Of a stretch of 64,000 nt of DNA, positions 16,797 through 26,672 are shown one piece after another. A program made the translations under genes and the position numbers. The DNA lies in contig OX638316.1 in NCBI GenBank assembly GCA_951812525.1, forward strand, positions 4,024,506-4,088,505, written 5' to 3'. This DNA is from an uncultured Poribacteria bacterium (GTDB lineage: Bacteria; Poribacteria; WGA-4E; WGA-3G). How positions within the stretch are numbered: the stretch's first letter is position 1; each line of letters opens with the position of its first letter. The notes below the pieces were generated by a model that saw nothing but the letters and a program-made list of their open reading frames with translations, was not told the origin of the DNA and did not search any database.

Positions 16797-17564
16797 ATGA
16801 AAGGCACAAGACCCTTAGATAACGCTGAAATCCGAAAAGTATTGGAATCCTTTGAAGGCGTGTTTGCTGTTCGGAATCGAAGTCTATTTATGTTAGGCGT
16901 ATCCGTCGGAGGACGTATTAGCGAGCTGCTCGCGCTGAATGTGAACGATGTATGGCAGAATAACAAGCCCGTCAAAGATTTGTTGTTTGATCGGAATATC
17001 GTGAAAGGTGGTGAGGTATCAAGAGCCGTGCCTGTAAATACTGATGGCAGGCAGGCGATTGAAAACCTTATTGCATGGCATGCAAAGATGTTTGGAGACA
17101 TCAATCCGCCTCGTCCGCTGTTTCCGTCGCGGAAAGGACAAGGTTTAAAAGCGATGACAAGAATCGCGGCACATGATGCTCTAAAGATCGCATTTGAAGC
17201 AGCAGGCTTAAATGGAAAACTCGGTACGCACTCCCTGCGGAAGTCTTATGCTCAGCGTCTATACGAACAGACGAACGATATTTATGCTGTGCAAGAGATG
17301 TTGGGGCATAAAAGCGTCGTAACAACACAGCGGTATCTGGGTGTTAACTACGCCAGTGTCCGGGATGCCTCGGAAGCGATGTCGATTCATGCCGAATCTA
17401 ACGTAAGGACGAAAACGTTAAGTTCGGTATATGATGCCTCGGATGACGAACTTTTAATCGAATTGCTCCGTAGAGGGTATGATGTCGCGCGTTTACTGGA
17501 TAAGAACGATACAGAACAACCTCTTCAGCCATCAAATGAAGAAATTACACCAAAGTTTGTTTAA
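16797..17564 (+). CDS. Tyrosine recombinase, catalytic domain only
   Basis: Site-specific recombinase/integrase fold, 255 aa. The catalytic set is complete: Arg in SVGGRISELLALN, Lys in VKGGEVSR, HSLRKS (H-x-x-R), His in LGHKSVVTT and Tyr in TTQRYL. The N-terminal SAM-like core-binding domain of ordinary integrases is missing; the protein begins only about 35 residues before the catalytic Arg, yet has a good start (CAGGAG upstream of ATG 16797). No phage genes, tRNA or visible att repeats are nearby. A C-terminal tail of about 50 residues is acidic. Confidence 0.85.
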   Translation: MKGTRPLDNAEIRKVLESFEGVFAVRNRSLFMLGVSVGGRISELLALNVNDVWQNNKPVKDLLFDRNIVKGGEVSRAVPVNTDGRQAIENLIAWHAKMFGDINPPRPLFPSRKGQGLKAMTRIAAHDALKIAFEAAGLNGKLGTHSLRKSYAQRLYEQTNDIYAVQEMLGHKSVVTTQRYLGVNYASVRDASEAMSIHAESNVRTKTLSSVYDASDDELLIELLRRGYDVARLLDKNDTEQPLQPSNEEITPKFV

Positions 17565-17613
17565 AAATAAATCTGACGACCATTTTTTACTATCTTTTAC
17601 TGTTCTCCCGACT

Positions 17614-17641
17614 CTAATAAAATAAGACTATATTTTATTAG
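17614..17641. promoter_or_regulatory. Perfect AT-rich palindrome before the small membrane genes
   Basis: CTAATAAAATA (17614-17624) and its exact inverse TATTTTATTAG (17631-17641) around six bases, ending a few bases before the Shine-Dalgarno of the 78-aa gene. It could be an operator or a weak terminator for the recombinase gene. Confidence 0.5.
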
Positions 17642-17659
17642 AAAGTTGGAGGAAAGAAA

Positions 17660-17896
17660 ATGGAACAAATCGTTCTGATTGTCGCTATTATCTTTGGAAG
17701 TATCACGGTAACAACGATCGTGACTGTCTGGATAGGTACTTCCTATTCGGCAAAGAAAAAGGGATTGACGAAAGGTGCGTCACAACGCGAGATAGAAACA
17801 CTGCAACAGAAAGTAAATGACGTTCAACAAGAAATAGAGGTACTTAAAGGGGAAGTGAAACGACTCATCCAAATCGCCAAGGGTGTGGGTGAGTAA
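17660..17896 (+). CDS. Small membrane protein with coiled coil (paralogue 1)
   Basis: 78 aa, unknown function. One N-terminal membrane helix (IVLIVAIIFGSITVTTIVTVW) ends in the motif VWIGTSYSAKKKG, then a predicted coiled coil (about residues 43-72) rich in Gln, Glu and Lys. GGAGGAAAG precedes the ATG. The next gene, 14 bases on, has the same helix-VWxGTSY-charged-coil plan, so this is a tandem duplication. The size and layout recall PspB-like proteins but no sequence match is claimed. Confidence 0.75.
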   Translation: MEQIVLIVAIIFGSITVTTIVTVWIGTSYSAKKKGLTKGASQREIETLQQKVNDVQQEIEVLKGEVKRLIQIAKGVGE

Positions 17897-17910
17897 AGGA
17901 GGAGACAAGC

Positions 17911-18240
17911 ATGTCAATGGCACTACTGATTTTCCTCGTACTGGTATTCTTCCTTATTTTCAAGTTTACCGCTGCGTTTACCGCTATTGTGGCAATAATT
18001 GCTGGGACTACTACACTTTCTATACTTGTATCTGTCTGGTTGGGAACTTCGTATCATCTGCGGAGATCAGGATATAATCCTAAAAGTGCCGAAGAAACCT
18101 ACCGTCAGGTGGATTCTGATTTAAATCAGATCGTTGGGGATTTGCAAGAGATCCGTTCTGGATTAGAGGCGGCGGAATCGTATTTACGGGATGTGGAATT
18201 TTTAAGGTATGCCCGCCAGAACAGCAAAACAGAGAATTAA
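17911..18240 (+). CDS. Small membrane protein with coiled coil (paralogue 2)
   Basis: 109 aa, unknown function. Two hydrophobic segments (residues 3-19 and 22-44) precede VWLGTSYHLRRSGYN, matching VWIGTSYSAKKKGLT of the preceding protein. A helical cytoplasmic tail follows (VDSDLNQIVGDLQEIRSGLEAAESYL). AAAGGAGGAGA precedes the ATG. The pair is evidently co-transcribed and probably forms a hetero-oligomer; the partner process is unknown. Confidence 0.75.
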   Translation: MSMALLIFLVLVFFLIFKFTAAFTAIVAIIAGTTTLSILVSVWLGTSYHLRRSGYNPKSAEETYRQVDSDLNQIVGDLQEIRSGLEAAESYLRDVEFLRYARQNSKTEN

Positions 18241-18265
18241 CATCGTAAAGCATAAAAAGACGAAC

Positions 18266-18295
18266 ATAGGCAGGACAAAGATATGTCCTGCCTAT
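18266..18295 (+). terminator. Strong hairpin after the small membrane genes
   Basis: Arms ATAGGCAGGACA and TGTCCTGCCTAT form a perfect 12-bp stem with a six-base loop, 25 bases after the stop codon. The trailing T-tract is poor (TGTATGTAC), so termination strength is uncertain. The remaining gap to 18472 holds GGCTTGTAG/CTACAAGCC arms but no gene. Confidence 0.55.
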
Positions 18296-18472
18296 TGTAT
18301 GTACAAAAGGTATATTTTCAGGAGCTTAAACTGTAAATTATAGCCCCGCTACAAGCCTTGTGTATTTTTTCGGTAGGGTTACCATAGAGGAGCGTCTTTT
18401 TCAAGGGGCTTGTAGGGCATTCTCGAAAGCCTTTTTTTAACCGTGATTTATGAATAAAACACACATGAATGA

Positions 18473-19660
18473 CTAACGGATCAACCATTGGTGAAATAGC
18501 ACATCTCTCCTCTCAGGTTCGACCACCCGCAGCAAAACTTTCCCGTCGATAAAAAAATCGACTGCCATGAAACCTGCATGCTGATGCGCGAATAGAGTAT
18601 TCTCCCCAGACATAACTTCCGTCACTTTCCGGCTCGCAGCAGCCCCGCTGACAAGAAAATAGTCTACAATATCGTCTTTCAAAACTTGCAGAGAATGTTC
18701 GTGTCCAGAGGCATAGATTAAAAGTGGCGTGTTTTGGTCAGCGGGATTCCGTGCCGAAAATGCTCGGTTCAGCTCCGCTACCATATTTTTATTACGTTCC
18801 CCACTTATATCTTGATCGGATTTGTACAGATGCTCCCGAAAATAAGGACCTATCGACCCGACTACAGGTACTGGAACCCAGAGCCATCTTTTTAGAAACT
18901 TAGCAGGAAAAAGGTGATATTTCCAATCAAAGTAACCACCGTGCGGTCCATAAGTTTCCAGCGGATGGTGTCCTACAACAATAACCGGCAATTCTGTGTC
19001 TAACAGTCCAATGAGTTCCTCGATAACCAATTCGGGTGATTTTTGCGGTTTTTCATGTCGGTGGAGCCACCACTGCGTGTTCAGAACAATGAGCCGGACT
19101 GCGGGGTTGCCTTTCGGAAGTTCAAGTGCAACTGGACCGGGTGTACCTCCAGATGGTAGGAAATTCAATTCGCCAGCCAGTGCCTTGTTGATATATTTTT
19201 CTTGTGCGACAACTGCGCTGAGTCCTTCCGTCTTCCCACCAGCCCAATCATGATTTCCTGGGATGAACAATCCATGAGCACCAGAGGCTTTGACAACAGC
19301 GAGTTGTGGTGTGAGGCGTTTTTCGGCTTCATGTTTTTTGCGTTCTGTCATTCCCTCTGGATACATGTTGTCCCCTAAAAAGACGATACTCGTTTTCGCA
19401 GCGTCTTTTCTCGCCCATTCACTGAGGGTTTTTAGGACCGGTTCATCTCGTCTTGGTTCCCCACCATCGCCGAGGAGTAACAGGCGATAATGAAGTGTGC
19501 CTTCTACTTCAGTATCACGTTTCCCAATTTCGGGGACATCGGAACGGTAATACGGTTTGCTATGGCTACACCCTGCGCTTGTCAGTTGCACCACTTGAAT
19601 AATGCAAAAGAGTAAGAGAATACAGCGAGTGAAATAGGGATGTTGATAAAATCGGTTCAT
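18473..19660 (-). CDS. Calcineurin-like metallophosphoesterase lipoprotein
   Basis: 395 aa. An N-terminal hydrophobic segment followed by TSAGC (Cys 31) looks like a lipobox, so the protein is probably anchored in the envelope. Metal-site motifs of the calcineurin-like fold occur in order: LLLGDGGEP, VFLGDNMYPEG, GNHDW, VGHHPLETYGPHGG and GHEHSLQVL. Di-metal phosphoesterase activity is likely; the substrate is unknown. It lies downstream of hisS on the same strand but 47 bases away, possibly transcribed with the his genes. Confidence 0.8.
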   Translation of the reverse strand: MNRFYQHPYFTRCILLLFCIIQVVQLTSAGCSHSKPYYRSDVPEIGKRDTEVEGTLHYRLLLLGDGGEPRRDEPVLKTLSEWARKDAAKTSIVFLGDNMYPEGMTERKKHEAEKRLTPQLAVVKASGAHGLFIPGNHDWAGGKTEGLSAVVAQEKYINKALAGELNFLPSGGTPGPVALELPKGNPAVRLIVLNTQWWLHRHEKPQKSPELVIEELIGLLDTELPVIVVGHHPLETYGPHGGYFDWKYHLFPAKFLKRWLWVPVPVVGSIGPYFREHLYKSDQDISGERNKNMVAELNRAFSARNPADQNTPLLIYASGHEHSLQVLKDDIVDYFLVSGAAASRKVTEVMSGENTLFAHQHAGFMAVDFFIDGKVLLRVVEPERRDVLFHQWLIR

Positions 19661-19707
19661 TATTCTATAGTGGTCGTATCATTTGACATACCAAAAGGGA
19701 AAACATT

Positions 19708-21039
19708 TTACGTTTTTGCTAATTCTTGAATGTGTTCAATAAGTTTTTCCCGAGGGACAACTTGCTGTTCTCTGCTGGCGAGGTCCCGAACAGCGACTGT
19801 GCCTGCTTCTACTTCATCAGAGCCGAGGATGACCGCATAGGGAATACCTTTGCTATCGGCATATTTCATCTGTGCGCTAATGCGCGTCGGGCGACAATAG
19901 ACTTCGGTACGGATACCGCTGTTACGCAGAAGCATCGCCACTTTCAGAGATTCTTGGGCGAGATCTGCGTCGAAAACGGTTACTAACACTTGCGTTACCG
20001 TTTTGCCTACAGCCGGTGGGAACATATCAAATTCTTCCATCACGTCAATAATACGTTCAATACCAAAACTAGTGCCTGTTGCAGGATGACCCTGTTTGCT
20101 GAAACTGCCGATGAGTTCATCGTACCTGCCACCACCAGTAATGCTCCCAATTTTTGGTTCTTCGACAACGGTTTCGTAAATCGGACCCGTGTAGTATTCC
20201 AATCCACGTACCATCGAAACGTTCACCTTGTAGAACTCATCTGGTACGCCAAGAGTTGTGAGATAACTGTTCAGTTCTTCTAATTCCACAATACCCTCTC
20301 TTGCCACTTCGGAATCGCCGAGTTGTTCAGCGAGTGCGTTCAAGACTGTCGCTGGATCACCTTCAATTTGGAGCAGTGCGAGTAGATTCTCAATAACAGA
20401 CTCAGGAATCTGATTTTCTACCAATTCCGATCTAACTCCATCCAGACCAATTTTATCTAATTTATCGATGGAGCGATATAGCCCACCGAGCTGCTCAGTA
20501 GGTACACCGGTGGATTGCCCGATCCCAGTAATTAATTTTCGGTCGTTGATGTTAATCTGGAATTGTTTGAAACCGAGTCTAGTCAGCACCTGATAAATAA
20601 GGTTGACGTTTTCAGCATCAGCCAGCATGCTATCGGTTCCGACCGTATCTGCGTCACACTGGAAGAATTGACGGTAGCGTCCCTTTTGTGGACGTTCCGC
20701 TCGCCAGACAGGATCAATCTGGTAGCGCTTAAACGGTTTGGGCAGTTGCGGATACATGGCAATAACGCGGCATAGCGGGACCGAAAGATCATAGCGGAGA
20801 GAAATGTCTTCTTTTCCACCTACATGACCTGCTTGATAGATGAGTTTCTCAGCATCCGGTCCGTACTTACCAGTGAGCACTTCAGATAATTCAAGAGCGG
20901 GTGTTTGTAAAGGTTCAAATCCAAATTCCTCAAACACGTCGCGAACAATATCTATAACATATTGCCTGCGAATCATCTGCTCAGGTAATATGTCTCGCAT
21001 CCCCCGCGGGACACGCGGTTTAATAAATGGGGCTGCCAT
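19708..21039 (-). CDS. hisS: Histidyl-tRNA synthetase
   Basis: Class II aminoacyl-tRNA synthetase charging tRNA-His. Start ATG 21039 follows GAGGAGAAA and gives MAAPFIKPRVPRGMRDILPE. Motif 2 is FKRYQIDPVWRAERPQKGRYRQFFQCDAD, the histidine-binding segment is VRGLEYYTGPIYE, and motif 3 includes GGGRYDELIGSF; a C-terminal anticodon-binding domain begins near VTQVLVTVFD. Full length (443 aa). It is the third gene of hisZ-hisG-hisS, so both histidine synthesis and its tRNA charging lie behind one leader. Confidence 0.93.
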   Translation of the reverse strand: MAAPFIKPRVPRGMRDILPEQMIRRQYVIDIVRDVFEEFGFEPLQTPALELSEVLTGKYGPDAEKLIYQAGHVGGKEDISLRYDLSVPLCRVIAMYPQLPKPFKRYQIDPVWRAERPQKGRYRQFFQCDADTVGTDSMLADAENVNLIYQVLTRLGFKQFQININDRKLITGIGQSTGVPTEQLGGLYRSIDKLDKIGLDGVRSELVENQIPESVIENLLALLQIEGDPATVLNALAEQLGDSEVAREGIVELEELNSYLTTLGVPDEFYKVNVSMVRGLEYYTGPIYETVVEEPKIGSITGGGRYDELIGSFSKQGHPATGTSFGIERIIDVMEEFDMFPPAVGKTVTQVLVTVFDADLAQESLKVAMLLRNSGIRTEVYCRPTRISAQMKYADSKGIPYAVILGSDEVEAGTVAVRDLASREQQVVPREKLIEHIQELAKT

Positions 21040-21155
21040 AAATTTTCTCCTCATAATTTTAAGAAACCTCGGTTACATGCCAGAATGCACCGACTGCATC
21101 CGAATCCAACGATCTGACAACGGAAGATAGTGCGAAGTTCGAGAGATACAAGACC

Positions 21156-21935
21156 TTAAATGTGTCCGGGGAGTGCCTGACTCCGCCGTCTCCGTAAACC
21201 TTTCTGTAGCGTCTGCTTGAGTTCTTCAATTTTCTCCTGCTTCCACGGATCTCTGAGTGCCTTCGGATTAGCAATGAGAGTAGATTCAGATTCGCGCAAC
21301 AGTTCAATGACTTTAAGTGCATTTGCTCTGAGTGTACGCCGCGATGCAGTCGAATTGTCGATGATAGCATCGGCTTCTTCAGGTGGTTTCCCCTCGGTCG
21401 CTCCGAAAGACAACATAAGCGTGATAGGGGATTGGTAAGAACCACGCGTGTTAAGCCGTTTCCAAGGCGTTAAAATTGCAGGTGCGATCCTATTCTCCGT
21501 CTTTTCAAGGATAAATTTTTCGGCGAGGTTCAAATATTCGGTAGAAATACGGATGTCCCTATCTGCGAGATTCACCAAATCAGCAAATGTATTGATGTCA
21601 TCTTGTTCTTCGCGAACAGCAAGAATAATATCAATGTGTCCATATTCCAACGGTAAGATTTCTTCAACATCTGCATCAGTCTCTTCAACCCAATCTTGAC
21701 CTGTGATACCTACGTCGTAGAAATCATCCATACCGACATAGACAGGGATCTCTTGCGGACGCGAAATTTTGATTTGAAAATCGCTATCATTCTGAAAAGT
21801 CGCGCGATAGGATCTATCAGTTGCTGTATAACCGTTGAGTTCATAACCAGCACGCTGAAACATTTCAAGGGTATCTGCCTGCAGGCTGCCCTTCGGCAAT
21901 AGTAGATTCAGCGTCCGTTGTGATTCCGTTTGCAT
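21156..21935 (-). CDS. hisG: ATP phosphoribosyltransferase catalytic subunit (short form)
   Basis: First enzyme of histidine biosynthesis, joining ATP and PRPP. Signatures: LLLPKGSL at the N-terminus, VYVGMDDFYDVGITGQDWVEE, and the PRPP loop IIDNSTASRRTLRANAL. It lacks the C-terminal ACT-like domain of long HisG (259 aa; the chain ends soon after LIANPKALRDPWKQEKIEELKQ), which matches its neighbour being the regulatory subunit HisZ. AGAAGGAGAAT precedes the ATG. It is 47 bases after hisZ and 116 bases before hisS. Confidence 0.92.
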   Translation of the reverse strand: MQTESQRTLNLLLPKGSLQADTLEMFQRAGYELNGYTATDRSYRATFQNDSDFQIKISRPQEIPVYVGMDDFYDVGITGQDWVEETDADVEEILPLEYGHIDIILAVREEQDDINTFADLVNLADRDIRISTEYLNLAEKFILEKTENRIAPAILTPWKRLNTRGSYQSPITLMLSFGATEGKPPEEADAIIDNSTASRRTLRANALKVIELLRESESTLIANPKALRDPWKQEKIEELKQTLQKGLRRRRSQALPGHI

Positions 21936-21982
21936 TTAGATTCTCCTTCTAAGGATGTGGACTTGTAGCTATTGATCTTGCG

Positions 21983-23419
21983 CTATAAAAGATCAGCAAC
22001 AGTGACGACTTGTGTGTCACCGGTTGTGATTTGAATTCGGCAGATCGACCCATCAGGGACTAAACGGATTAGATAATCGTAGTTTGCTTGATTGGCGTAG
22101 TCCTGTTGTGCTTGCAGGTCGCGTTCCATCAAATCAACTTCCACATTCCTGCCATTTCTGCGAAGCGTTTCAGCAAGCCGCTGGGCATCTGCAACGCCTT
22201 CTGGTGTTTCTGCTGCGATGAAATAATCTTTTCTGCCGTTAACAGTTATCTTTCCTGTATCAGCAAATGTCTCGACAAGCACATCAAATTGGAACGCAAA
22301 TCCTGCCCCAGGTGTTGATGGACCGCCGAAAGATTCAATCAGCCTGTCGTATCTGCCACCACCACAGAGAGGTCGGTGTTTCTCAGGCAATTCAATCTGA
22401 AAGACCGTGCCAGTATAGAAATCGAACCCGCGCGTAATACCCAAATTGATTTCAAAATCTGTAATGTCATAGTTTTCCAAACAATCGCAGAGCATGAGCA
22501 GTTCTTGCCGTGCTACTTGTGCCGTATCACCGAGGTATTTTTCCCATGCCGACATGACAGTATCTCTGTCGCCAGAAATTTTTGAGACATCTATACAGCG
22601 CTGTGCGGTCTCCTCAGAAATATTAAAATAGCGATGCCAGCTTGCTTTATAAGTTTCCTCAGCGATGATCGGCAATTTCTCTGCATAAGCGGCAACATTA
22701 CTCTCAGTTAATTTCTGAATTGTGGAAACTTCAATTTTGTAGTCCCCTTGGTAGTCAGTTCCCTGCGAGCGTCTCAACATATTAAACGCATCTCGGAGGG
22801 TCTCAATATCCCAAAGTTTCGCTTCGGCGCGCAGACGCGCGAGATAATCGATGTCCCATATAATTTCGCCGTGATCCTTGGTATCAAGCGAGACCTGTTT
22901 GAAAATCTCTCGAAAGATACCCGTGTTTCCGATCTTTAGCTTTGTGTTTGAAATGTTGAGTTTTTCGAGGATACGTACAGGAATCGCGATAATTTCCGCG
23001 TCGGCGTGGGCGGAAGCGGGTCCGATGAGTTCAACACCAGCCTGTCGGAATTCTATTTTCACCTCAGCACTATCTGCTGTCGGCTCTAGTCGGACACATT
23101 GCCCGATGTAGTAGAGTTTATACGGATAAGGTAGGTGTCCCAGTTCTTCGTTAGCAATGAGACGACAGACAGGTGCTGTCATTTCGGGTCTCAAGGCGTA
23201 ATCGACGCGATCAGAACCGACGAAGGTAAACATTTTATGCCGGATTTCCTCACCAGACTGGGCAGATAAAAGGGCAAAGGATTCAAACAGGGGGGTCTGA
23301 ATTTGGGCATATCCATAGGTTTCAAAGGTTTCACGAACGACCTTTTCGACGAAATTTCGCTGAACCATCTGTTCAGGTAAAAAATCGCTCGTTCCAGTAG
23401 GTTTATCAAACTTTTCCAT
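21983..23419 (-). CDS. hisZ: ATP phosphoribosyltransferase regulatory subunit
   Basis: HisS-like paralogue that activates short-form HisG and carries its histidine feedback. It shows the synthetase fold (PTGTSDFLPEQMVQRNFVEKVV, LRPEMTAPVCRLI, RGFDFYTGTVFQIELP, CGGGRYDRLIESFGG) but with diverged motifs compared with the true HisS at 19708-21039. The start is uncertain: ATG 23419 matches the family N-terminus (MEKFDKPTGT), ATG 23446 is also possible, and the ORF is open to 23524. It is first in the operon behind the leader peptide and attenuator. Confidence 0.88.
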   Translation of the reverse strand: MEKFDKPTGTSDFLPEQMVQRNFVEKVVRETFETYGYAQIQTPLFESFALLSAQSGEEIRHKMFTFVGSDRVDYALRPEMTAPVCRLIANEELGHLPYPYKLYYIGQCVRLEPTADSAEVKIEFRQAGVELIGPASAHADAEIIAIPVRILEKLNISNTKLKIGNTGIFREIFKQVSLDTKDHGEIIWDIDYLARLRAEAKLWDIETLRDAFNMLRRSQGTDYQGDYKIEVSTIQKLTESNVAAYAEKLPIIAEETYKASWHRYFNISEETAQRCIDVSKISGDRDTVMSAWEKYLGDTAQVARQELLMLCDCLENYDITDFEINLGITRGFDFYTGTVFQIELPEKHRPLCGGGRYDRLIESFGGPSTPGAGFAFQFDVLVETFADTGKITVNGRKDYFIAAETPEGVADAQRLAETLRRNGRNVEVDLMERDLQAQQDYANQANYDYLIRLVPDGSICRIQITTGDTQVVTVADLL

Positions 23420-23572
23420 TTTTTTTACGATTCGATTTCGCTCCATCTTTTCCGTTGTCAGAAATGGGTTCTGCCAAATCTCGACAACGTTAATAATGAT
23501 TGATGGTGAGGATGTATATCTCACCGGCGTACAAAGTATGTTTTAACAACAATTTGAGGGACTAAAAAAGTC

Positions 23573-23599
23573 AAAAAAAAACCCAGCAAACAGTTTGCT
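23573..23599 (-). terminator. Intrinsic terminator (attenuator) upstream of hisZ
   Basis: On the minus strand AGCAAA-CTG-TTTGCT followed by GGG and nine T. It lies between the leader peptide and hisZ with no other gene to terminate. The 3' arm plus GGG (23582-23591) can instead pair over 10 bp (three G-U) with CCTGGTAAAC (23646-23655), an antiterminator that excludes the terminator. Confidence 0.75.
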
Positions 23600-23636
23600 C
23601 CTTTTCTGAGACGCGTTGACAGGACAGCGCGTGAGA

Positions 23637-23716
23637 GAGCGGCTTGTTTACCAGGGTCCGGGCAAGTTAGACTTGCTTCGTATCAATAATGTCTATACAT
23701 ATTCCCTCATCCGCTC
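23637..23716 (-). promoter_or_regulatory. Leader RNA stems between his leader peptide and attenuator
   Basis: GAGCGG, just after the leader stop (23716-23711), can pair with CCGCTC (23642-23637), enclosing a perfect GCAAGT-CTA-ACTTGC hairpin (23676-23662). The outer stem encloses the CCTGGTAAAC strand (23655-23646) used by the antiterminator, so the two foldings may compete. Confidence 0.55.
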
Positions 23717-23719
23717 AAC

Positions 23720-23773
23720 TCAGAAGTGGACCGAATGATGGTGATGTATATTAAATGCAATAATATTAATCAT
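23720..23773 (-). CDS. Histidine operon leader peptide
   Basis: 17-codon ORF reading MINIIAFNIHHHHSVHF: four consecutive His codons plus a fifth, then a stop. It begins about 60 bases after a perfect promoter and is followed by alternative stems, a terminator and hisZ-hisG-hisS. In enteric his operons a leader of the same logic (a run of His codons) senses charged tRNA-His through ribosome stalling. A Shine-Dalgarno is not obvious (the upstream sequence is GCGATACGAAAAA), the main weakness. The His run, the position and the downstream gene identities together make chance unlikely. Confidence 0.82.
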   Translation of the reverse strand: MINIIAFNIHHHHSVHF

Positions 23774-23840
23774 TTTTTCGTATCGCTTGCAAGCAGAAGC
23801 TCGCTGTTAAAAATCGATGATTTTAATTAACTTTAATGAT

Positions 23841-23869
23841 ATTATACCCTACCACGAAGCAAATGTCAA
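23841..23869 (-). promoter_or_regulatory. Perfect sigma70-type promoter of the his operon
   Basis: Minus strand TTGACA (23869-23864), 17-base spacer, TATAAT (23846-23841). Transcription would start near 23834 and read through the leader peptide. The whole gap 23525-23896 is accounted for by promoter, leader ORF, stems and terminator. Confidence 0.85.
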
Positions 23870-23896
23870 ATTTTTTCTAGACTGTTAGGCGACTTA

Positions 23897-25528
23897 ATGA
23901 AAATTAAACCAATTTACATCATTTCTATACTAGGTGTGCTGCTATCGGTGCTCTTGTGTGGTATCTACTTCCAGTTCTCCTACTTTGAACCAGATACCGT
24001 CTCCTACCTATTCCAAGCGAAATTGTTCTCCGAGGGCAAACTCTCGGTTCCCGCGCCTCCAGAACACGGACTCTCCTCTTCACCACATATTAATGTCCTA
24101 AACGGCAAATGGTATTCAAAATACCCCTTCGGAAACGCCTTGATGCTAATGTTCGGGGTATTTATTAACGCGCCGTGGCTAATTCCTGCGCTTGCAACGG
24201 GTGGTGCGCTCCTGTTTCTCTATCTGTTCGTAAAAGAGATATATGGCGAAATCCACAACGGTATCGCGCTTACCACCGCGGTGCTTGCGCTCGTTTCACC
24301 AGCAACGCTCGGCATGGGGTCCACATGGTTCAGTGAACCGGTTAGCCGTTTTTACTTATCGCTCTACTTATTTGCGCTTCTTAAGACATTAAATTACAAG
24401 AACGATGCCTCTCTGCTTACTCGGATTGGTTACCCGCTTCTCTCAGGTTTTGCATTAGGATATGCGTTCAATACGCGACCACTCTCCGCCGTGGTATTTG
24501 GCGTTGTTGGTGCAGGTTTGGCAATTTATCACCTCATTACCCAATGGCAGCAGAGACACGACGCAACAGGTGCACTATTAATTACAGTGAAACGGTTAGG
24601 GTTTTTCTTTATACCGTTTGTTGTTATGCTTGGCGTATGTATGGCGTGGAACTCGCATTTCACTGAAGATCCGTTCCTGTTTACGCATACGGTTGCACAA
24701 CCGTATGACAAGATTGGATTCGGTCCTCGAATGGAAGGCTACGAACCTGATATCGAACAAGCGCGCATCTTTACACCGGCATGGGCAATCGAAAGGACAT
24801 GGCGACACATTCTCCCATCCATTAGTTTCAATGCCTTAGGATGGGGGAGTTACCATCATAATTTGTTGATAGAAGTCGAACTATCACTGATGTGGTTCGT
24901 TGCCTTTGTACCGTTAATTTTGCCGTGGGTTCTTGCGCTATTGCCGTTTTTCCACGCTTCTCGGAACAAATATGATATATTCTGTCTTTCCCTACTCATA
25001 ACTAATCTATTACTTTATTCTGTCTTCTACTTTGAGGGTTCAACGTGGGGATTTACACCCGTAAATGCGCGCTATTATACGGAATCGACGTTCCTCGGTT
25101 TTATACCGTTGGTAGCACGTGGGATGTTTATTCTATATGAGCGGTTTAAAGTGTCTGAGAGACGCGGGCTTGCGATTGGTGTAGGGGTATGCTTCTTGTT
25201 ACTCAGTGTTAATATTGTATGGAGTTATATCCGTATTGGAGAGGTGTATCAGAATTGGAGTCCTGTCTATCAGAAACTACCGCCTATGGTAGCGGAACGT
25301 AATATTCACAACGCCGTTATTTTCGTATCTCAACACCGAGGCGCGCCGATTGGAGACTACCCGTTCCAGAGTCTTGAAGAAGCAGATATCGTCTATTTTA
25401 AACTCGGTCCCGCGCCACGGTGGAAACTGACAAATAGTGATTGGGAGAGTGTATACGCGCAATACTTTACGGGTAGGAATGCCTATCTGTATGTGCCACG
25501 TGAAAATAGCCTTACACAACTAAAGTAA
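23897..25528 (+). CDS. GT-C-like polytopic membrane protein
   Basis: 543 aa with about ten to twelve membrane segments. The first extracytoplasmic loop begins FEPDTVSYLFQAKLFSEG, the acidic loop expected for GT-C glycosyltransferases (ArnT/PMT/DPM-sugar users) that transfer sugars from lipid carriers outside the inner membrane. Family assignment rests on topology and this loop; sugar and acceptor are unknown. Start ATG 23897 has AGGCGA upstream. It diverges from the his operon and stands alone. Confidence 0.6.
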   Translation: MKIKPIYIISILGVLLSVLLCGIYFQFSYFEPDTVSYLFQAKLFSEGKLSVPAPPEHGLSSSPHINVLNGKWYSKYPFGNALMLMFGVFINAPWLIPALATGGALLFLYLFVKEIYGEIHNGIALTTAVLALVSPATLGMGSTWFSEPVSRFYLSLYLFALLKTLNYKNDASLLTRIGYPLLSGFALGYAFNTRPLSAVVFGVVGAGLAIYHLITQWQQRHDATGALLITVKRLGFFFIPFVVMLGVCMAWNSHFTEDPFLFTHTVAQPYDKIGFGPRMEGYEPDIEQARIFTPAWAIERTWRHILPSISFNALGWGSYHHNLLIEVELSLMWFVAFVPLILPWVLALLPFFHASRNKYDIFCLSLLITNLLLYSVFYFEGSTWGFTPVNARYYTESTFLGFIPLVARGMFILYERFKVSERRGLAIGVGVCFLLLSVNIVWSYIRIGEVYQNWSPVYQKLPPMVAERNIHNAVIFVSQHRGAPIGDYPFQSLEEADIVYFKLGPAPRWKLTNSDWESVYAQYFTGRNAYLYVPRENSLTQLK

Positions 25529-25562
25529 TGTGAGTTCGACACAAGTTGGATGTTTGCTACAG

Positions 25563-26672
25563 TTACATCACTTGCTCCAAAATGATGATGTCTCCCGGAT
25601 TCCAAGATTGCGCGATGATGTAAAATTTACCGTCAATTTTGCGAATGACTGCGCCGTGCAGATGCTGGAAAGTCTCGATACCCAGTTCTTCCTTCAGCAT
25701 AACAGTTGAAACGAGATTGTTCCCTTCCAGAATATAGAGCGGAGCACCTTTCTTTTGATCGGGTCCGAAAAGACACGCAACGACGGCATATCCCGCTTCG
25801 TAATCAATGCTACAGGGGAATGAACCTTTGATAAGTGGGAGGGTTTCCAAATAGGTGCCATCCGGTGAATAGCGTTCAATTTCTGCATTTGCCCGATCGG
25901 AAGCATCCAACCGATTTGTCCCGTAAGGCACTGTAATGTGGTGTCCTGTCCCGAATTGTCCAGGTTCATCGCCCTTGCCACCAAATGCCAACGGATACCA
26001 GCTCGCCTCAAGTGGTTCGAGGCTCGTGAGTTTTACCCCCAGAATGTAGTCTAAATCAGAGTAACCCGTGGTAACGTAAAGCATACCATCAACGTGTGTC
26101 ACACCAGTTGGCACGAACTTCCCACCCTCACTGAAATAGGTGTTAACTGCCTGATGTTTGAAATCTGTCATTGCGTCTGGAGCATCCAGTGTATGCACGA
26201 GTTTGCCATCTAAAGTCGTCGTGAAGATTCTCCCGACATCGTTAGCAGGAAAAGAGAGGTAAGGGGTGCCAGCAGTTGTTGACCAGACTGTTACGTAGTG
26301 CGCATTGGCTTCTTTCAAAGCAGTCGGAGTCTCAATCAGCTGAGTTGTTTTCAGGTCTGCACTGATTTGGATGATACCGACACCGGGTAGTGCGAAGTAG
26401 GTTTCGCCTTTTCCGTCCCGTCGATCCACATCAAAACCACCGTGCGCTTTGTCGATTGCAGCTACGACTTCTGCAGGGAAATGATCGCGTGTATAGAGGA
26501 CTTTGAACTTAAGCGCGCCCTGTCCGCTAGTGAGTTGTGTATCGGGAGTTTTCTCGTGATTAGCTACGAACTGCCAGCCTTTCGTTTCAGATGACGGATG
26601 TTCTATTATATGGGCATAAGCGTGTCCAATTATAAGGGTTACGGCGAAAATTAAAAAGACAATCTGTCTCAT
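25563..26672 (-). CDS. Secreted propeller-like protein of unknown function
   Basis: 369 aa with a signal peptide (MRQIVFLIFAVTLIIGHAYA, cleavage before HIIEH) and GAGGAG ahead of the ATG. The body repeats strand-rich units with Asp/Gly turns (GGFDVDRRDGKGETYFALPG, VTHVDGMLYVTTGYSDLD, RYSPDGTYLETLPL), suggesting a six- or seven-bladed beta-propeller. No active-site motif is recognised. It is the last gene after the sugar-isomerase-like gene with a 15-base gap, so probably co-transcribed. Confidence 0.6.
   Translation of the reverse strand: MRQIVFLIFAVTLIIGHAYAHIIEHPSSETKGWQFVANHEKTPDTQLTSGQGALKFKVLYTRDHFPAEVVAAIDKAHGGFDVDRRDGKGETYFALPGVGIIQISADLKTTQLIETPTALKEANAHYVTVWSTTAGTPYLSFPANDVGRIFTTTLDGKLVHTLDAPDAMTDFKHQAVNTYFSEGGKFVPTGVTHVDGMLYVTTGYSDLDYILGVKLTSLEPLEASWYPLAFGGKGDEPGQFGTGHHITVPYGTNRLDASDRANAEIERYSPDGTYLETLPLIKGSFPCSIDYEAGYAVVACLFGPDQKKGAPLYILEGNNLVSTVMLKEELGIETFQHLHGAVIRKIDGKFYIIAQSWNPGDIIILEQVM

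Follow-up and report, generated by a model that had tools for sequence, protein, structure and literature searches.

The his locus and its leader

The window, a stretch of 64,000 nucleotides, is part of the 5.06-Mb single-contig genome of a Candidatus Poribacteria sponge symbiont. On its minus strand, hisZ, hisG and hisS lie downstream of a promoter, a His-rich leader ORF and a U-tract. Read along this strand, the promoter (23869-23841) is followed by the ORF (23773-23720), by some 147 untranslated bases that end in nine U residues, and then by the three genes.

23841-23869, minus strand: sigma-70-type promoter, TTGACA (23864-23869), 17 bases, TATAAT (23841-23846), 12/12 match
23720-23773, minus strand: leader ORF MINIIAFNIHHHHSVHF, 17 codons with TGA stop
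23735-23746, minus strand: proposed sensor, a run of four His codons (CAT CAC CAT CAT); a fifth His codon follows further on
21983-23419, minus strand: hisZ, ATP phosphoribosyltransferase regulatory subunit; among solved structures it matches 3od1 (a HisZ) best; additional in-frame ATG at 23446
21156-21935, minus strand: hisG without a HisG_C domain
19708-21054, minus strand: hisS, histidyl-tRNA synthetase; TIGR00442 at 396 bits, above the cut-off

The product of hisZ scored 225 bits against TIGR00443 (HisZ), under the curated cut-off of 271.65, and 272.6 bits against the hisS profile, under the cut-off of 286.75. Its synthetase signature is not intact (GFAFQFDVL versus GFALSIERL in HisRS 1qe0). 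A HisRS-like protein of this kind, encoded beside a HisG lacking HisG_C and with a separate full hisS in the operon, fits HisZ and is predicted to work like one. In most of the family, the HisG profile aligns as two segments with a break near position 130, suggestive of an insertion at that site. The arrangement of the genes and the small gaps between them point to hisG and hisS as members of the same operon. The gene hisD (G000:C1:3814161-3815345) lies about 0.23 Mb off, behind a murA-like gene and without a copy of the hisZ leader; control by the leader thus appears to be limited to the first step of the pathway and to hisS. The segment 23413-23470, which spans the hisZ start and the bases just upstream, is similar to a short sequence dispersed at unrelated sites in many relatives (about 74-90% identity), with one further copy in the same genome (80% identity).

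A preliminary description of this DNA had reported a perfect promoter and a 17-codon ORF with four tandem His codons plus a fifth, and both were confirmed. The promoter is the sole 12/12 match within 17000-26000, and at least 11 of the 12 positions match in 49/50 family leaders. The transcript is expected to start near 23834. No second promoter-like site was found on the minus strand from the terminator to hisZ, and no clear Shine-Dalgarno sequence was seen upstream of the leader ORF. Because CAYCAYCAYCAY is present 48 times in the same genome, the four-His run alone is weak evidence. In folding, the leader RNA was more stable than shuffled sequences (z -3.5).

Conservation across the poribacterial family

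When a genome collection was scanned with the hisZ locus, the named relatives were all Candidatus Poribacteria; these and the other genomes compared are metagenome assemblies. We took the regions upstream of hisZ from 56 genomes, built a covariance model from 52 leaders, and scanned 59 family genomes and 26 genomes of other families with it. The model matched the leader RNA in 56/59 family genomes with E-values from 3e-20 to 9e-56 (all at or below 3.4e-20), which restate conservation, as it was trained on most of the matched sequences. What stands independently of this is that a strong match occurs once per genome and not elsewhere. The three family genomes without a match are not assembled across the region: in two of them hisZ, hisG and hisS were all not found, and in the third a contig end cuts hisZ. 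A second copy in genome G024 (L155, G024:C200), at a contig end, is probably due to a contaminating strain and not a second locus.

The leader lies ahead of hisZ in every case where the contig permits a view. A run of three to four tandem His codons is present in 54/54 complete leaders, a set that includes one leader divided between contigs and another that lacks its stop codon. The run is of the HHHHSVHF type in the genus of the window, and of the HHHSxHS type or HHHPxHA in the three other genera. The fifth His is dispensable, being replaced by Asp in two genomes and by Tyr in one. In G033 (L042), the stop codon reads TGG, so that the ORF is nine codons longer and runs through the antiterminator strand described below. 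A search of relatives for a His-rich ORF with covarying stems had been proposed in the preliminary description; both turned out to be conserved, and the lack of conservation named there as the refuting outcome did not occur.

No convincing model matches were obtained in the 26 genomes of other families. Matches in G041, G053 and G060 (E 0.02-0.2) were dismissed as chance; the G060 stretch was inspected and is without the leader arrangement. Likewise, no His-rich ORF with adjacent His codons was found upstream of hisG in 20 sister-family genomes (one of these regions has only 116 bases). HisZ and a downstream hisS occur in nearly all of the 59 family genomes, and the other families of the phylum gave only weak matches, fitting HisS. 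HisG in other families is the long form with HisG_C (one was checked, and the ORF lengths of most others agree). At the level of sequence searches, neither HisZ nor the leader was found in the sister families, which makes the leader a usable case for studying the origin or transfer of a regulator along with the replacement of an enzyme.

The predicted terminator

Helix pairing was scored as the percentage of paired cells in an alignment of 52 genomes, with slid-partner and shuffle controls.

23646-23655, minus strand: predicted terminator stem, 5' arm CCUGGUAAAC; covariation score matched by 0/500 shuffles
23573-23591, minus strand: predicted terminator 3' arm GUUUGCUGGG (23582-23591) and U-tract of nine (23573-23581)
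23612-23631, minus strand: hairpin nested within the terminator loop, CGCG...CGCG; 89.9% of cells paired, both-side changes in 4/4 counted pairs
23662-23676, minus strand: conserved small hairpin GCAAG...CUUGC; 99.6% of cells paired

The helix CCUGGUAAAC:GUUUGCUGGG reaches 98.8% paired cells, compared with 20-49% when the partner is slid. Its variable positions show the pair types UG, CG, UA and GU, AU, GC; the covariation is modest because many of the sequences are close. These 10 bp end exactly at the U-tract, and we therefore assign the helix to the terminator. In the preliminary description it was a competing helix: its existence is confirmed, but the competing role does not hold, since it is the stem that abuts the U-tract. 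Together, the conserved covarying stem and the U-tract between the leader ORF and hisZ constitute a predicted intrinsic terminator. Its loop is unusually long (54 nt in the window). The GCAAG...CUUGC hairpin is possibly a pause hairpin.

The proposed antiterminator and hairpin 1:2

23711-23716, minus strand: proposed antiterminator 5' strand GAGCGG, three bases past the leader stop codon
23637-23642, minus strand: proposed antiterminator 3' strand CCGCUC, which pairs with GAGCGG
23707-23738, minus strand: hairpin 1:2, UCAUUCG (23732-23738) paired to CGGAUGA (23707-23713); surrounds the stop codon and occupies GAGCGG; predicted in all species checked

The most likely antiterminator is the pairing of GAGCGG with CCGCUC, which is kept in 99.7% of cells. 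As both strands are nearly invariant, covariation speaks neither for nor against this helix. In the terminator state, GCUC(U) of the 3' strand is able to pair with GGAGC (23597-23601), a nested pairing found in most, not all, genomes. The antiterminator and the main stem of the terminator share no bases, and their coexistence would need a pseudoknot. How GAGCGG:CCGCUC excludes the terminator is the least certain part of the model.

The last His codons pair with bases downstream of the stop codon to give hairpin 1:2, which competes for the GAGCGG region. The counterpart of this hairpin in the other genera, CAUCAUUCAAUCC:GGAUU-A-GAAUGAUG, is paired in 95.9% of cells and shows compensatory changes, one of them via a synonymous His codon change from CAU to CAC. 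Another pairing between the leader ORF and the 5' side of the terminator, GGUCC:GGACC, was not adopted (75% of cells, mainly one genus). Genus g20 (e.g., leader L071) has an extra alternative that was not seen in the genus of the window: UCCAUU of the ORF may also pair with a downstream AGUGGA.

Folding with a mock ribosome and the proposed mechanism

Comparing the two states of the folded leader, as the preliminary description had suggested, gave a clear result for the free RNA and a nearly balanced one for the stalled complex. The bases covered by a ribosome were blocked and either helix was forced in an equilibrium model of 52 leaders. Without a ribosome, the terminator was favoured in 52/52, by a mean of 10.5 kcal/mol. 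With a ribosome on the last His of the run, the mean difference was about 0.3 kcal/mol, and the antiterminator was lower in 23-25/52, including the window (-39.4 versus -35.5 kcal/mol); about half of the genomes were still slightly terminator-favouring. With the ribosome on the stop codon, the antiterminator strand was masked in 51/52, the exception being G033, in which the stop is lost. Across ribosome positions, the modelled order agrees with classical attenuation. In addition, the antiterminator would be the earlier of the two helices to form as the RNA is transcribed, a factor that lies outside an equilibrium calculation.

Sequence and comparison together show a conserved promoter, a His-rich ORF, a conserved terminator stem with U-tract and a conserved competing pairing. 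Taken with the folding, they make it very probable that transcription of hisZ-hisG-hisS is controlled by ribosome-mediated attenuation in the leader, with charged tRNA-His as the signal sensed. Attenuation by His codons ahead of these genes was already the claim of the preliminary description and is strongly supported by conservation; terminator and antiterminator had been misassigned there, and the likely antiterminator (23711-23716/23637-23642) had been missed.

In the proposed mechanism, scarcity of charged His-tRNA would stall the ribosome on the His run and open hairpin 1:2, leaving GAGCGG free to pair with CCGCUC. This pairing would enclose the 5' arm of the terminator in a loop and withdraw GCUC from the nested supporting pairing, leading to read-through. 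When charged His-tRNA is plentiful, the ribosome would reach the stop codon and cover GAGCGG, or depart and let hairpin 1:2 reform. With GAGCGG unavailable, CCUGGUAAAC would pair with GUUUGCUGGG and transcription would end in the U-tract.

A further idea we put forward only tentatively, as it is somewhat less likely to be right than wrong. The antiterminator, which pairs with neither arm of the terminator, would act as a topological switch that traps the 5' arm in its loop by a pseudoknot-type exclusion. This switch would have arisen or arrived with the exchange of a long HisG for HisZ and a short HisG at the base of the family, placing histidine synthesis and tRNA charging under one sensor.

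Alternative explanations

The preliminary description had placed the intrinsic terminator hairpin within 23573-23599, where a local hairpin of six mostly A-U pairs can be drawn, with GGG separating its stem from the U-tract. In a first alternative, attenuation would operate with the helices swapped: this hairpin (23585-23599) would be the terminator, and the antiterminator would be the long-range 10-bp helix. The window sequence accommodates both pairings, and the U-tract comes within three bases after the local hairpin. However, the hairpin is broken in many relatives, with standard pairs in 71.7% of cells and covariation not above that of shuffles, whereas the long-range helix persists in nearly all of them and lies immediately next to the U-tract. 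The local hairpin was rejected as terminator, and we regard the swapped arrangement as improbable.

Two other explanations dispense with attenuation at the His codons, and each seems to us more improbable still. One is a T-box or another tRNA- or ligand-binding riboswitch, with the His-rich ORF being incidental. The leader RNA is indeed highly conserved, and in some Firmicutes, T-boxes act on hisS and on his operons (PMC9413887, PMC2965389). Yet there was no Rfam match at the gathering threshold and no T-box or riboswitch match at E up to 5, the tandem His codons recur in every complete leader, and hairpin 1:2 is made of His codons and the bases after the stop. The other is that the short ORF encodes a functional His-rich peptide (e.g., a metal-binding one) and that the operon arrangement is coincidental. 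The conservation of HHHHSVHF or HHHSxH, a motif extending past the His run, would fit such a peptide, but the N-terminal half is variable and has little excess of third-codon-position changes, and conservation reaches far past the ORF into paired RNA. The constant position ahead of hisZ, where the contig allows a view, also argues against coincidence. Ribosome-mediated attenuation is thus our preferred reading.

Comparison with known systems

An Rfam scan of the leader at gathering and permissive thresholds (E up to 5) gave nothing relevant; both RF00514 (His_leader) and the T-box were unmatched. The earlier statement that nothing had been described in this lineage holds for Poribacteria in the literature searched for attenuation or leader peptides (subscription journals being mostly outside coverage), but the association with hisZ is known from bacilli, where His leader peptides occur ahead of hisZ and, separately, of a hisS paralogue (Naville and Gautheret 2010, PMC2965389). 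Likened by description, the bacillar hisZ leaders share the His-codon leader peptide and the terminator ahead of hisZ; they belong to another phylum, and in Poribacteria hisZ, hisG and hisS stand together behind one leader.

In the enteric his leader, tandem His codons, hairpins and a terminator with U-tract are combined such that the ribosome position decides (PMC9413887), and the poribacterial leader has the same elements. Unlike the enteric leader (RF00514), which governs the whole his operon, it would control hisZ-hisG-hisS, and its proposed antiterminator pairs inside the terminator loop and not with the 5' arm of the terminator. His attenuators have also been predicted in the Bacillus cereus group, Peptostreptococcaceae and Erysipelotrichales (PMC9413887). 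These resemble the poribacterial leader in their run of three to five His codons, followed by a predicted terminator and antiterminator, and in being comparative predictions; they differ in lineage (Firmicutes) and in operon arrangement. In Actinobacteria, too, aminoacyl-tRNA synthetase genes are predicted to be under leader-peptide control (PMC1262725).

His attenuation and its link to hisZ are therefore already known. What is new, as judged from the sequences, is the phylum, the RNA itself and the predicted joint control of hisZ, hisG and hisS; the geometry of the modelled antiterminator is possibly new, too. Histidine leader-peptide attenuation would thereby extend to an uncultivated phylum of sponge symbionts, with comparative evidence from more than 50 genomes for each helix, and a single His-tRNA sensor would stand ahead of both histidyl-tRNA synthetase and the initial step of histidine synthesis.
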